Both the position numbers and the translations under genes were made by a program. Of a DNA stretch of 9,279 bases, positions 5,262 to 9,279 are shown one piece after another. The stretch is from Candidatus Tectimicrobiota bacterium. Lineage in GTDB: Bacteria; JACPSX01. Every line of letters begins with the position of its first letter. Position 1 is the first letter of the stretch. The stretch is taken from contig JACPSX010000133.1 in the NCBI GenBank assembly GCA_016193065.1, forward strand, positions 1-9,279. Direction: 5' to 3'. The notes under the pieces were generated by a model. The model did no database searches. It saw nothing but the letters and a program-made list of their open reading frames with translations, and was not told where the DNA came from.

Positions 5262-5837
5262 CTACTTGTGGGAAGAGACAATCTCCTGGTACTTGCCCTG
5301 AGAGATCTGTAAGATGTCCCGGTGCAGGCTGTTGCCGTGGCTGTCCATTGTGACCACGGCCGGGAAGCTGCGCACGGAGAATTCCCAGATCGCCTCGGGG
5401 CTGCCGAACTTCTCCATCAAGTGCACCCCGCGCACCTCGGTGACGCATTCGGCCAGCACCTGGGCCGCCCCGCCGATGGCGTGGAGGTAAACGCAACCGA
5501 ACCGCTCGCAGGCCTTCAGCGTTTTATCTCCCATTCCCCCTTTGCCGATGATTCCACGGATCCGGAACTTCTCGATAATTCCCGCCTGGTAGGGTTCTTC
5601 CCGGATGGAGGTCGTGGGACCCGCGGCCACCACCGTCCAGCGTCCGTTCCTCTGGATGACCACCGGCCCGCAGTGGTAGATGATCGCGTCTTTCAGCGAG
5701 ACCGGAGGGACTCCGCCCTCGTGCAGAAATTTGTGAACCGCATCGCGGCCGGTAAATATGATTCCGGAGATTTCCACCAAGTTGCCCACCTTCAGGGGCC
5801 GAACCTTTTTTTCCGTAAACGGAGCCTCTAGCAACAT
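5262..5837 (-). CDS. Fumarate hydratase class I, beta subunit (Fe-S hydro-lyase, tartrate dehydratase beta-type)
   Basis: This 191-residue subunit pairs with the alpha subunit encoded immediately upstream to form the cytoplasmic [4Fe-4S] fumarase, which interconverts fumarate and malate. Family motifs are SGIIFTGRDAVHKFL (24-38), YHCGPVV (54-60), AAGPTTSIREEPY (71-83, the substrate-binding GPTTS loop), GKGGMG (98-103) and HAIGGAAQ (119-126). The length is normal for the split form; in the fused enzymes this part is the C-terminal domain. The start at 5837 follows GAGGAG by nine bases, and 30 bp separate it from the alpha-subunit stop, so the two are co-transcribed. Class I fumarases and L-tartrate dehydratases share both domains, so tartrate or another hydroxy-dicarboxylate is a possible alternative substrate. 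Fumarase is the more likely call. Confidence 0.92.
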   Translation of the reverse strand: MLLEAPFTEKKVRPLKVGNLVEISGIIFTGRDAVHKFLHEGGVPPVSLKDAIIYHCGPVVIQRNGRWTVVAAGPTTSIREEPYQAGIIEKFRIRGIIGKGGMGDKTLKACERFGCVYLHAIGGAAQVLAECVTEVRGVHLMEKFGSPEAIWEFSVRSFPAVVTMDSHGNSLHRDILQISQGKYQEIVSSHK

Positions 5838-5867
5838 GGCATCCCGCTCCTCTGCAGAGCGCCGGCC

Positions 5868-6746
5868 TCAGTACAGCCAGCGCGCGATATCTCCTCCGTT
5901 ACTCAGGACAAACCCCTGGCGCCGGAAGGCCCAGCACATATAAGAGACGCTGACGAAGTAGCTGGCGGGGAGCCGGTTCAGGACCCCGATCTTCACCCCC
6001 AGCACGGTCGTCTTGCCGCCAAAGCCCATAGGCCCGATCCCCAGGTCATTCCCCTTCTCCACCATCTCTTCCTCGAGCTGCGCCAGCACCGGATCCGGGT
6101 TCCTGTCGTCCAGGGCGCGCAGGAGCTGCTCTTTGGAATGCGCGTAGCCCGTGGCCCGGTCGCCTCCAACCCCCACGCCCAGGATCCCCGGTCCGCACCC
6201 CTTTCCCTGGGCCTGCAAGACCGCATCGAGAATGCATTTGCGAACCCCGTCCAGATCCCGATCCGCCTGGATGCGCCCGTCAGGGAGCGAGTACTGGACT
6301 CCCATGTTCTCGCACCCCCCTCCTTTCAAGATCAGGCGCACGTCTGCTTCGGGGTTTTTCCTCTGCTCGAAGTGGAACGCGGGGGAGCCCGGACCCAGGT
6401 TGTTGCCCGTGTTGGCCCCAGTGATGGAATCCACGGAGTTCTGGCGCAAATACCCCTGGGCCGTGGATTCCGCCACGGCCTCGCGGGCCGCTTCCTCGAA
6501 GGCCAACTGATCAAACCCGGCCGGGACTTTCACATAGAAGAGGATCGAGCCCGTGTCCTGGCACAGGGGCTGGGATTTCTCCATGGCCAGAACAATGTTC
6601 TTCTGGATCACGTCCAGGGCATAGCGGGCATTGGTCCCGCTCTCTTCTTTCTCGACACCCTCTCGGAGCGCGTTCACCACGTCCCGGGGGAGTTCCGCCG
6701 AAGTGCGTCGAATCAGCTCGATGAGGTTTTCCTTGAGATTCTTCAT
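5868..6746 (-). CDS. Fumarate hydratase class I, alpha subunit (Fe-S hydro-lyase, tartrate dehydratase alpha-type)
   Basis: This 292-residue subunit carries the [4Fe-4S] cluster of a two-subunit class I fumarase of the TCA cycle. Candidate cluster ligands by family position are C62 in PLCQDTG, C184 in GKGCGPG and C271 in YMCWAFRR. C145 in KGGGCENMG is an extra cysteine where many relatives have serine. Other landmarks are GANTGNNLGPGSPAFHF (110-126), ILGVGVGGDRA (188-198) and NDLGIGPMGFGGKTTVLGV (233-251). The start at 6746 lies seven bases after GGGAG. The beta-subunit gene follows after 30 bp, and a strong promoter lies upstream (6777-6806). The split alpha/beta form is typical of many anaerobes, archaea and thermophiles and is oxygen-sensitive in characterised examples. 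Tartrate dehydratase is the main alternative, less likely without a tartrate-specific context. Confidence 0.93.
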   Translation of the reverse strand: MKNLKENLIELIRRTSAELPRDVVNALREGVEKEESGTNARYALDVIQKNIVLAMEKSQPLCQDTGSILFYVKVPAGFDQLAFEEAAREAVAESTAQGYLRQNSVDSITGANTGNNLGPGSPAFHFEQRKNPEADVRLILKGGGCENMGVQYSLPDGRIQADRDLDGVRKCILDAVLQAQGKGCGPGILGVGVGGDRATGYAHSKEQLLRALDDRNPDPVLAQLEEEMVEKGNDLGIGPMGFGGKTTVLGVKIGVLNRLPASYFVSVSYMCWAFRRQGFVLSNGGDIARWLY

Positions 6747-6776
6747 GGCTGGGCTCCCTTTCCTAGCACTCCGGCC

Positions 6777-6806
6777 ATTTTAAGGAGGTTCTGCCCGACA
6801 GGTCAA
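6777..6806 (-). promoter_or_regulatory. Putative sigma-70 promoter of the fumarase operon
   Basis: On the minus strand, TTGACC (6806-6801) and TAAAAT (6782-6777) are separated by 18 bp and lie about 30 bp upstream of the alpha-subunit start at 6746. The predicted transcript start is near 6770, giving a short leader. Just upstream of the -35 are two direct copies of TTATTCG (6811-6817 and 6834-6840), which could be an operator or a repeat scar. Confidence 0.6.
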
Positions 6807-6841
6807 TGAGTTATTCGCACAGGGGACACCAGTTTATTCGT

Positions 6842-7876
6842 CTATAAGACGCGAGCCTCCCCTTCCTCCCCCGCCTTGCCCGAAACCGAGATCTCCCGGG
6901 GGAGGAACCGCCCCACCACCCAGGCTCCGGTCAGGAGGTGATTCGTGACCCGGTGGGTCGTGAAGGCGGACGGCCCGGGGGCTAGGGCCAGGAAAGGGAG
7001 GATCTGGTCCGCCAGATGCTCGTCCAAGGCCCCCTTGCCGGCCCGAAAATCGACCCACTGTTCAAAGGCTTCCCGAGCTACCTCCTCCGACGGCTTGCCC
7101 CGGGCCCCTAGACTGCCGAACCCGGCCCGCACCTGCTCAAACTCAGCCACCAGAAAAACAAAGGTTCCTTTTCCCGGGGAGGGGGCTTCCACAATGGAAA
7201 TCTCCGCGTCCTCCCCCGCTTCTCGAAGCAGCCTGCGGAGCTCCGCGGCCTGGCGGTCGGCAATGGAGCGGGGGAGATTAGAGACGGCGGAGATTCCCCG
7301 CAGCTTCCGGAGGGCTCCACGATCCTGCAGGTTGAGGGGGTTCCATCCACGGGCACGGCGCAGGGTCACCTCTACCTCTCCCCCTCCAGCCGGGTACCAG
7401 CCCCAACGGATCAGATCCACTCGGGCTTCACCACCCAGCTTTGCGATCATCGGGAGGAACACCTCCTGGACGTAGTGCACGGGCGGACTCCAGGGGACGT
7501 GGGTCCCTCCTTTCACCCTGAGGCGGGAAGGCACATCGGCCAGGCACAAAGGGAGAAAAACCGCCTGGAGTACCAGGGATACGGATCCCGCGCTCCCCTT
7601 CCGCTCCGCCACATCCCAATCATAGGTACCGCCCAGCAGGGGGCCGGGACGGAACTCGATTTCCCGGGAGCCCAGTTCATCACCCAGGACCCGGGCCGAG
7701 CAGATGTCCCGGGCAGCCAGCACGGAGGCGAGATGCTGGGGTTGAAGTCCCGGGTTCCTGCGTCCCGCCCGGATGTTCGTCAAGCGGAACGGCGTCCCCG
7801 TAACGCAAGACAGGGCCAGAGCCGTGCGCAGGATCTGGCCTCCGCCCTCGCCAGTCGAGCCATCCAATGTCAGCAC
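6842..7876 (-). CDS. rtcA: RNA 3'-terminal phosphate cyclase
   Basis: RtcA uses ATP, through a histidine-AMP intermediate, to convert an RNA 3'-phosphate into a 2',3'-cyclic phosphate; characterised enzymes also adenylate 5'-phosphorylated DNA ends. The protein has 344 residues, the normal length. Landmarks are LDGSTGEGGGQILRTALALS (4-23), GGTHVPWSPPVHYV (123-136), the family signature GWYPAGGGEVEV (159-170) and EHLADQILPFLALA (286-299). H287 in this last motif is the expected adenylated histidine. Near the end THRVTNHLL matches the usual 'TTH..TN' strand. The start is GTG at 7876, five bases after GGGAGG, placing the conserved LDG motif at residue 4 as in relatives. It is divergent from the Clp1-like kinase at 8012 with a 135-bp shared control region. 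No rtcB, archease or rtcR is in view, unlike the classic E. coli arrangement. Confidence 0.95.
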   Translation of the reverse strand: MLTLDGSTGEGGGQILRTALALSCVTGTPFRLTNIRAGRRNPGLQPQHLASVLAARDICSARVLGDELGSREIEFRPGPLLGGTYDWDVAERKGSAGSVSLVLQAVFLPLCLADVPSRLRVKGGTHVPWSPPVHYVQEVFLPMIAKLGGEARVDLIRWGWYPAGGGEVEVTLRRARGWNPLNLQDRGALRKLRGISAVSNLPRSIADRQAAELRRLLREAGEDAEISIVEAPSPGKGTFVFLVAEFEQVRAGFGSLGARGKPSEEVAREAFEQWVDFRAGKGALDEHLADQILPFLALAPGPSAFTTHRVTNHLLTGAWVVGRFLPREISVSGKAGEEGEARVL

Positions 7877-7930
7877 AGGACCCTCCCGTTGCTATGACTG
7901 GTTTTCCTGCCGAATCTTGCCCCTTTCGAT

Positions 7931-7959
7931 ACTATAGAAGATGATCCCGAAGCCGTCAC
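7931..7959 (-). promoter_or_regulatory. Putative rtcA promoter in the divergent rtcA/kinase control region
   Basis: On the minus strand, GTGACG (7959-7954) and TATAGT (7936-7931) are spaced 17 bp, a reasonable sigma-70 promoter about 55 bp upstream of the rtcA GTG. The box core CTATAG is palindromic, so polymerase could also be recruited rightward toward the kinase, though I see no matching -35 on that strand. I found no sigma-54 type GG-N10-GC element such as drives rtcBA in E. coli. Confidence 0.45.
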
Positions 7960-8011
7960 CTAGTCTTCCCGCCCCGGGGTTGAAATCCGGAGACCCTGCG
8001 AGGGAGGAGAG

Positions 8012-8902
8012 ATGGACAACCTGGATGTCCCAGACTCCTGGCATGAACTTGCAAACGTATTGGTTCGCGATCCGGGAGCGGTCCTCTTTCTTGGTGAACC
8101 GGATGCCGGCAAGAGCACCTGCGCCTTTTTCCTTGCCCAAGAACTTGCGGCCCGCAGTCTTTCCGTTGCGTTCGTTGATGGGGACATCGGACAGGCGCAT
8201 CTGGGTCCCCCGGCAACCCAGGGGCTTGCCCTGGTCAACTCCCAAGTACTTCAACTGCAGCACCTCTACTTCGTCGGCGCCATCACCCCCGCAGGCCATC
8301 TCTTGCAAGCGGCCGGAGGAATCAAGAAGCTTACAGATCGCGCCCGGGAACTAAAAGCAGAGATCATCCTGGTGAACACCACGGGCTTCATTAGCGGACA
8401 GGCGGCTACGGCTCTCAAGCTCCACAAGGTGGAGCTCCTGTCCCCGCGCCACATCGTGGCCCTCGAGCGCGGGGATGAACTGGCGGGAATTCTCACAGCC
8501 CTGGCCTCACCACCGGGAATTACCATCCACCGGCTGGCGGTCTCGCGTCGCGTGCTTCCTCGGACCCCGGAGCAGAGGCGAGCCTATCGCCGCCAGCGCT
8601 ACCAGGACTATTTCTCGAACTCCGGACGGCTGGAGATCCCTCAGCACGGACCCATCGGAATTGAGTACGCTGGAAACGCCCCGCTTCTGGCCAAAAATCC
8701 TCCGGCCATGTTGGGTCTCCTGGTAGGTCTCAACGATCCAGAGGACTTCGCCCTGGGCGTGGGGATCATCCGGGAGCTTTGCGAAGATCCAGCGACGATG
8801 GCCGTGGAGTCCCCGCTTCAGGACCTGTCCGGGGTCGTCCGCTGCCGCTTCGGCACCGTCGCCGTGGGCCCCGACTGGGAGGACCGCCCGCTCGTTTCCT
8901 GA
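8012..8902 (+). CDS. Clp1/Grc3-type polynucleotide 5'-hydroxyl kinase
   Basis: This predicted 296-residue P-loop kinase of the Clp1/Grc3/Nol9 family would transfer the ATP gamma-phosphate to a 5'-OH end of RNA or DNA. Walker A is GEPDAGKST (28-36). VDGDIGQAHLGPPATQG (55-71) is the hallmark 'D.D.GQ...PP.T' Walker B/substrate segment. VNTTGFISGQAATALKLHKV (121-140) matches the family 'DTTG...G....LK..K' motif, followed by SPRHIVALER (144-153). The arginine-rich helix RTPEQRRAYRRQRYQDYF (184-201) is the expected lid. The C-terminal third is a small beta-rich domain. The start at 8012 follows GGAGG by four bases. It is divergent from rtcA and followed after 64 bp by a macrodomain gene, supporting a role in nucleic-acid end processing. 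The exact nucleic acid is unknown. Archaeal and eukaryotic members act on RNA; bacterial ones are little studied. Confidence 0.87.
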   Translation: MDNLDVPDSWHELANVLVRDPGAVLFLGEPDAGKSTCAFFLAQELAARSLSVAFVDGDIGQAHLGPPATQGLALVNSQVLQLQHLYFVGAITPAGHLLQAAGGIKKLTDRARELKAEIILVNTTGFISGQAATALKLHKVELLSPRHIVALERGDELAGILTALASPPGITIHRLAVSRRVLPRTPEQRRAYRRQRYQDYFSNSGRLEIPQHGPIGIEYAGNAPLLAKNPPAMLGLLVGLNDPEDFALGVGIIRELCEDPATMAVESPLQDLSGVVRCRFGTVAVGPDWEDRPLVS

Positions 8903-8906
8903 TGTG

Positions 8907-8951
8907 TGGTAAAATTTCAACTCAGCAGCAAGCTGAGAAGCCCGGTCCGGG
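8907..8951 (+). promoter_or_regulatory. Possible promoter and hairpin between kinase and macrodomain genes
   Basis: The 64-bp gap holds an extended -10-like TGGTAAAAT (8907-8915) without a recognisable -35. It then has a hairpin CTCAGC/GCTGAG (8921-8926 and 8932-8937, 5-base loop) and the near-palindrome CCCGGTCCGGG (8941-8951). The macrodomain gene could be read through from the kinase or have its own start. There is no T-run after the hairpin, so it is unlikely to be an efficient terminator. Confidence 0.3.
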
Positions 8952-8966
8952 ACAGGGGAAAAAGCC

Positions 8967-9279
8967 ATGGAAATTGAAGTCCAACAGGGGAGCATTTTGG
9001 AAGCCCGGGCAGATGCAATCGTCAACGCCGCCAACAGCCAGGGGGTCATGGGGGGCGGCGTGGCCGGCGTGATCCGGCGGGCCGCGGGTAAAGAAGTAGA
9101 AGAGGAAGCCGTTGCCCAGGCTCCAATCCCCGTCGGTTCCGCGGCTCTGACGGGAGGCGGCAAGACGCGATTTCGGGGCATCATCCATGCTCCCACCATG
9201 CCCCAGCCGGCCCAGCGTATTCCCGCGGAAAACGTCTACAAGGCCACCGCGGCGGCCCTGCGGCTCGCCGAGGAAAAAG
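8967..9279 (+). CDS. Macrodomain protein, ADP-ribose-binding or -hydrolysing (partial, C-terminus off the window)
   Basis: Only the first 104 codons are present, all within one macrodomain. MEIEVQQGSILEARADAIVNAAN includes the conserved strand and the NAAN motif (20-23). MGGGVAGVIRRAAG (28-41) is the glycine-rich catalytic/distal-ribose loop and following helix. PIPVGSAALTGGGKTRFRGIIHAP (about 53-76) is the next strand pair, ending at the usual 'IHAP/IHA' motif. Macrodomains bind or hydrolyse ADP-ribose on proteins or nucleic acids, O-acetyl-ADP-ribose, or ADP-ribose-1''-phosphate, the last produced after 2'-phosphotransferase-dependent RNA ligation. The loop MGGGVAG resembles archaeal AF1521-like or Thermus-like domains. 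A purine-rich AGGGGA lies about seven bases before ATG 8967. It sits downstream of the Clp1-like kinase in the same direction, which hints at a role in the same end-processing pathway. Whether more domains follow is unknown. Confidence 0.88.
   Translation, partial: MEIEVQQGSILEARADAIVNAANSQGVMGGGVAGVIRRAAGKEVEEEAVAQAPIPVGSAALTGGGKTRFRGIIHAPTMPQPAQRIPAENVYKATAAALRLAEEK

Follow-up and report, generated by a model that had tools for sequence, protein, structure and literature searches.

Clp1 enzymes convert 5'-hydroxyl (5'-OH) ends into 5'-phosphate (5'-P) ends, and the ligase RtcB requires a 5'-OH end. In the Las1-Grc3/Nol9 system of ITS2 rRNA processing, the kinase makes a 5'-P from the 5'-OH cleavage product for exonuclease decay. 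RtcA, the RNA 3'-terminal phosphate cyclase, takes AMP on a catalytic His (His309 in E. coli) that Rcl1 lacks. In this study, we examine a 9,279-bp stretch of DNA from a Candidatus Tectimicrobiota bacterium (the window), in which a gene for RtcA and a gene for a bacterial Clp1-type kinase are adjacent. RtcA converts an RNA 3'-phosphate to a 2',3'-cyclic phosphate, and a 2'-phosphate much more slowly (PMC13247085). It is also able to adenylylate the 5'-P ends of both RNA and DNA, and the literature states uncertainty over which reaction, 3' cyclization or 5' adenylylation, is the "real" one (PMC4499129).

The nearest functional precedent for such a pair comes from animals, in which RTCA promotes RTCB-dependent ligation and CLP1 reduces it (PMC13247085). 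The same two activities act there on the 5'-OH ends and the 3' ends of the RtcB substrate, but the animal proteins are encoded by separate genes and serve tRNA and XBP1 splicing, whereas the bacterial pair is encoded by neighbouring genes. Within bacteria, the RtcA of the RtcR-regulated rtcBA RNA repair operon of E. coli and Salmonella belongs to the same enzyme family as the window protein, which matches it over its full length and shares its catalytic His. In that operon rtcB lies beside rtcA, whereas the window rtcA is flanked by a 5' kinase gene and by fumarase genes, in an assembly that, unlike the genomes with rtcBA, is without any RtcB match.

The Clp1 of Thermus scotoductus (Ts-Clp1) is an active bacterial 5' kinase that prefers single-stranded RNA (ssRNA) over single-stranded DNA (ssDNA), and it and the archaeal Ph-Clp1 are, like the window kinase, short forms with a CLP1_P domain and no eukaryotic N-terminal domain (PMC6777427). 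The Walker A, Walker B and clasp motifs, as well as a patchy spread across phyla, are common to these proteins and the window kinase family. R189 and R193, the arginines of the lid, do not vary in the window kinase set, whereas Ts-Clp1 is reported with a Lys at one lid position. The Grc3/Nol9 kinases share the fold of the window kinase, but the latter lacks their N-terminal and Las1-binding regions and has no adjoining Las1/HEPN nuclease gene.

We propose, with moderate confidence, that RtcA and the bacterial Clp1-type kinase are a functionally linked end-processing pair. Such a link, raised in an initial annotation of the window, is supported by adjacent and often overlapping clp1 and rtcA genes in 8 other genomes. 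The component families are known; the clp1-rtcA pairing itself appears to be new, and no description of it was found in searches for related terms in an open-access library, which misses most subscription journals.

Results

The rtcA and clp1 genes of the window

The window is an entire contig (C94) of a metagenome-assembled genome (MAG) of 2.9 Mb in 294 contigs, with a completeness of 86%, which means that roughly a seventh of the genes are absent from it. A search of the MAG for 16S rRNA gave no match. The three genes that the initial annotation had placed at the right-hand end of the window lie at the positions given there, and their domains (PF01137 and PF05189, PF16575, and PF01661) were confirmed.

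6842..7876, minus strand: rtcA, RNA 3'-terminal phosphate cyclase (344 aa, GTG start; PF01137 8.5e-77, PF05189 2e-20)
7877..8011, no strand: rtcA-clp1 divergent intergenic region (135 bp)
8012..8902, plus strand: clp1, bacterial short-form Clp1-type polynucleotide 5'-hydroxyl kinase (296 aa; PF16575 CLP1_P, 5e-36)
8967..9279, plus strand: macrodomain protein, N-terminal 104 aa (PF01661 5e-21, profile positions 1-92 of 118)

Purine-rich, ribosome-binding-like sequence directly precedes the start codons of both rtcA and clp1, and the region between the two genes holds a weak sigma-70-like match on the minus strand (7959-7931), which is a consensus match only. Fumarase subunit genes (PF05683 and PF05681; window 5262-6842) lie downstream of rtcA on the same strand after a 95-bp gap, and rtcA may therefore be co-transcribed with them.

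The gene at 6842-7876 (minus strand) is predicted to encode an active RtcA with its catalytic His intact. The protein scores above two NCBIfam equivalog cut-offs (TIGR03399, 393 bits against 250; NF003246, 387 bits against 352), and its score to the Rcl1 equivalog is far under the cut-off. Both the RTC domain and the insert domain are present along the complete protein, as judged from PF01137, PF05189 and the NCBIfam equivalogs, and solved RtcA structures are matched over the full length (4o89, 1.5e-72; E. coli RtcA 1qmh, 3e-68). His313, in the motif TNHLLT, occupies the position of the SCHLLT histidine of E. coli in the alignment, and at least 29 of the 30 RtcAs compared retain it.

The kinase, which is approximately 30-37% identical to the nearest relatives found, was modeled with AlphaFold2 (AF2) at a mean predicted local distance difference test (pLDDT) score of 93.3 and a predicted template modeling (pTM) score of 0.91. 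The top Foldseek matches of this model are Clp1 and Grc3 proteins. Structural alignment gave a Z score of 30.4 to human CLP1 (8hmy; root-mean-square deviation (rmsd) 2.5 over 276 residues) and of 30.2 to RNA-bound C. elegans Clp1 (4ohy; rmsd 2.8, 281 of 296 residues aligned), as compared to 23-27 for the Grc3/Nol9-type kinase fold and only 14 for the next unrelated P-loop proteins. The aligned part spans residues 1-287 and includes the C-terminal domain; hence the eukaryotic N-terminal domain is absent and an equivalent of the C-terminal domain is present. Residues assigned to Walker A (G28, G33, K34), Walker B of the form DxDxGQ (D56, D58, G60, Q61), the clasp (P93) and the lid (R189, R193) are identical in 65 of 65 homologues. 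The Clp1 fold, these invariant motifs and the demonstrated activity of Ts-Clp1 make it likely that the window kinase is active on 5'-OH ends.

Linkage of clp1 and rtcA in other genomes

Scanning 84,980 species genomes with a four-sequence kinase alignment yielded 64 named clp1 loci, a set biased toward QSHxGPP-type kinases by the alignment used; a scan of genome contigs with the window kinase as a single sequence gave no match. At 8 of the 64 loci, the next gene after clp1 is a same-strand rtcA. Seven of these are from Planctomycetota (L029, L030, L032, L047, L052, L064 and L081) and one is from Latescibacterota (L082). The distance from the clp1 stop codon to the rtcA start codon ranges from an overlap (ATGA in L052 and L082) to less than 30 nt, spacing of the kind that usually signals translational coupling. 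A ninth linked locus is probable in genome G088 (L056), in which clp1 stands at a contig end and rtcA at the start of another contig, the break falling between the two genes; an AMP-binding gene follows this rtcA, as it does in L029, L064 and L081.

The window differs from these loci in that its adjacent rtcA and clp1 are divergent, whereas the eight linked pairs are co-directional. The kinase tree places all linked kinases of Planctomycetota and Latescibacterota together in a clade of 14 rows, supported at 100/100, to which the window kinase does not belong. The window RtcA, in the tree of that enzyme, lies near RtcAs of the Desulfobacca type with moderate support (81/87) and outside the planctomycete clade. 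Since the window stands apart in both position and orientation, clp1 and rtcA were probably brought together at least twice. Both trees put the Latescibacterota genes beside their planctomycete counterparts, from which we infer that the two genes may have moved as a unit.

RtcB and RNA ligases

The initial annotation saw no RtcB within the window, and this is true of the whole assembly as well, for a search with PF01139 returned 0 matches; with the MAG only 86% complete, the absence may be one of the assembly. Elsewhere RtcB is common: 44 of the 50 clp1 genomes encode it, as do all linked genomes but G064 (7 of 8). In general, then, the pair is no substitute for RtcB, and the RtcB-independent route that the initial annotation had envisaged was rejected as a general explanation on these counts, though it may apply to the window genome. 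A classical ligase joining 5'-P to 3'-OH RNA ends was likewise rejected as a partner: the 5'-phosphate RNA ligase family PF09414 was found neither in the window genome nor in any of the 8 linked genomes, and among the 51 genomes searched it was matched in 7, with 4 above the cut-off. From its absence in all eight linked genomes, the 5'-phosphates that the kinase would make are not obviously destined for an Rnl-type ligase.

Two features of RtcB itself were noted along the way. The proteins of six Planctomycetota genomes (G063, G065, G066, G081, G088 and G091) score approximately 410-430 bits to PF01139, as against approximately 550-610 bits in most others. They represent a divergent type, and their genomes bear genes of the clp1-rtcA clade. 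In addition, three Nitrospirota genomes, those of the clp1 loci L044, L062 and L051, hold rtcB genes with an in-frame UGA (L162 on G078:C31, L163 on G090:C69 and L164 on G084:C489). The UGA replaces the metal-binding Cys of the active-site motif DINCG (VGYDINUGVRLLRS), the frame is otherwise uninterrupted, L164 being a fragment at a contig end, and directly 3' of the UGA is a stable hairpin of -16 to -21 kcal/mol over 48 nt. These genes are candidates for natural selenocysteine RtcBs; the sole paper found that names both RtcB and selenocysteine describes an artificial replacement of Cys98 (PMC4150793).

The macrodomain gene

The third gene at this end of the window is co-directional with clp1 and follows it after a 64-bp gap, but is incomplete because the contig ends at 9279. 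It encodes the sole macrodomain of the assembly, the closest solved structure to which is TTHA0132 (2dx6, 3.2e-15). Its match to the NCBIfam family NF001666, "ADP-ribose-binding protein" (8.9e-39), falls under the cut-off owing to the truncation. MacroD enzymes carry a catalytic Asp in a GGGVD(G/A) loop, and the window protein reads GGGVAGVIRR. The Ala in place of the Asp, which is also found in TTHA0132 and in the macrodomain of locus L069, renders MacroD-type hydrolase activity doubtful.

The initial annotation had grouped all three genes into one module. When neighbourhoods were compared across genomes, the clp1-rtcA adjacency recurred in the 8 genomes described above, whereas a macrodomain was found near clp1 at only 1 of 73 other loci, L069, where 1.5 kb, including an HD gene on the opposite strand, separates the two. 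No other macrodomain was detected in the clp1 and rtcA flanks searched, including those of the RtcA loci. The three-gene island was accordingly rejected as a conserved trait, and the macrodomain is probably a neighbour outside the kinase-RtcA pair. A role in anti-phage defence was rejected too: PADLOC gave no match for the window RtcA or kinase, and matched the macrodomain to DarG over 43 aa only. A DarG antitoxin would be recognised by a full-length match and an adjoining DarT gene; the macrodomain resembles DarG along a stretch of 41-43 aa at 31.8 bits (cut-off 250), its upstream neighbour is the kinase gene, and its downstream side is off the contig.

Other neighbours of clp1

Several further genes recur beside clp1. 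A SagB-like dehydrogenase/nitroreductase gene (PF00881; TIGR03605 above cut-off) lies directly upstream in 10 loci from Planctomycetota and Desulfobacca-type genomes (L030, L031, L034, L043, L047, L052, L056, L066, L079 and L081), mostly at a distance of 7-50 bp and at approximately 130 bp in L066. Genes for a PHP-type DNA polymerase X (polX) and an NTPase_1 protein directly precede clp1-rtcA in three same-strand runs.

L029, 4216-8441: polX-NTPase_1-clp1-rtcA run
L032, 4616-8888: polX-NTPase_1-clp1-rtcA run
L081, 1575-7337: polX-NTPase_1-clp1-rtcA run, also holding DUF429 and a SagB-like gene

DUF429 is found in L064 as well, and partial versions of the polX-NTPase_1-DUF429-SagB-like arrangement occur in L064, L052 and L043. 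Other neighbours are lineage-specific: an agmatinase/arginase-like gene (cluster c15) is directly upstream of clp1 in the Omnitrophota-type loci L059, L061, L072, L077 and L040, and argC/argJ-like genes (c22 and c23, judged by eye) occupy that position in Aerophobetes (L038, L041, L048 and L071).

Discussion

The linkage of clp1 and rtcA would be accounted for if both enzymes act on the same RNA breaks. The substrate would be RNA cut by metal-independent RNases, which bears a 5'-OH and a 2',3'-cyclic phosphate or 3'-phosphate. The kinase would phosphorylate the 5'-OH of the broken RNA, and that of DNA less well, while RtcA would convert the 3'-phosphate, and slowly the 2'-phosphate, to a 2',3'-cyclic phosphate, so that the joint product would be a 5'-P plus a cyclic phosphate. 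Because RtcB needs a 5'-OH, the kinase would remove the break from its reach and mark the RNA for 5'-monophosphate-dependent processing or decay; RtcA would keep the RNA 3' end protected or ready for RtcB. Where RtcB is also present, as in most of the genomes, the pair would act as a switch that decides what becomes of RNA breaks, a role like that proposed for CLP1 and RTCA toward RTCB in animals. We put forward only tentatively, at rather less than an even chance, the fuller proposal that this is an operon-level module in which kinase and RtcA set both ends of an RNA break, sending the RNA either to re-ligation by RtcB or to 5'-phosphate-dependent decay or adenylylation, and that it was assembled independently in at least two lineages, of which that of the window may lack RtcB.

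A number of observations weigh against a functional pair, and several of them favor the leading rival, namely that the kinase and RtcA of the window are functional but unrelated neighbours by chance, the planctomycete operon being a separate local arrangement. In a broad, family-level sample of 289 bacterial genomes, none closer to the window genome than "same domain", the CLP1_P kinase was present in 36 (threshold above 44 bits; PF16575 matches of 20-25 bits cover Walker A only and were excluded), RtcA in 33 and both in 7, a marginal excess over the 4.1 expected (one-sided Fisher p = 0.095), and in 0 of these 7 genomes were the two genes nearby. RtcA is present in 32 of the 50 named clp1 genomes as compared to 26 of 253 kinase-negative genomes of the broad sample (64% versus 10%, p = 4e-15), but the 50 were chosen as relatives of the window kinase subfamily, and the excess is inflated by shared ancestry and by the route through which the loci were found. 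Among 150 genomes sampled from one planctomycete class, 28 of which have RtcA, the only linked ones are the starting genome and the probable case of G088, and in Latescibacterota linkage occurs in 1 of 8 RtcA genomes. The window genome itself has no RtcB for the pair to switch. Moreover, clp1 has other frequent neighbours, the SagB-like gene upstream being commoner than rtcA downstream; the window pair is divergent and forms no operon; and its rtcA is perhaps co-transcribed with the fumarase genes instead. Nor is the window instance by itself proof, for it was picked out because it had been noticed. Against coincidence, the two genes would lie side by side by chance in any of the 32-39 genomes holding both with a probability of only approximately 2-3%, and the 8 further genomes have the pair in a geometry that suggests translational coupling. 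On this balance we regard mere coincidence as somewhat unlikely.

The main mechanistic rival retains the pairing of the two enzymes but reverses the end on which RtcA acts. In a sequential 5'-adenylation, the kinase would make a 5'-P that RtcA would then adenylate to AppRNA or AppDNA, yielding stable caps or pre-activated ligation substrates. This scheme would explain why kinase and RtcA are paired in a window genome with neither RtcB nor a PF09414 ligase, and it has a biochemical precedent in the adenylylation activity of RtcA (PMC4499129). The RtcA active site is common to this reaction and to 3'-end cyclization, however, and sequences cannot separate the two; we hold it to be unlikely.

A DNA repair module, in which the kinase repairs 5'-OH DNA breaks, is suggested by the Planctomycetota loci in which clp1-rtcA stands behind polX, NTPase_1 and DUF429, that is, by the three full runs, with or without DUF429 and the SagB-like gene, and their three partial versions. 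Yet polX is present in 3 of the 8 linked loci only and is not found near the window pair, RtcA cyclization is specific to ribonucleotide ends, and the single characterised bacterial Clp1 prefers ssRNA to ssDNA (PMC6777427), all of which leaves this explanation distinctly improbable. Least probable by our estimate is a three-gene island in which the macrodomain removes ADP-ribose products or modifications, for which one may cite its co-directional position 64 bp after the kinase gene and the macrodomain approximately 1.5 kb from clp1 in L069, but which is opposed by the lack of a macrodomain in the flanks of 72 other clp1 loci and at RtcA loci and by the GGGVAG sequence that stands where GGGVD would be expected of a MacroD-type hydrolase.

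A coupled kinase-RtcA pair, the reading that we prefer, joins two questions, the physiological substrate of the bacterial Clp1 kinases and the real reaction of RtcA. It would mean that both enzymes probably take the same broken molecules as substrates, and would provide a defined two-enzyme system. It would also place in bacteria, side by side, two activities for which opposing roles toward RtcB have been proposed in animals.

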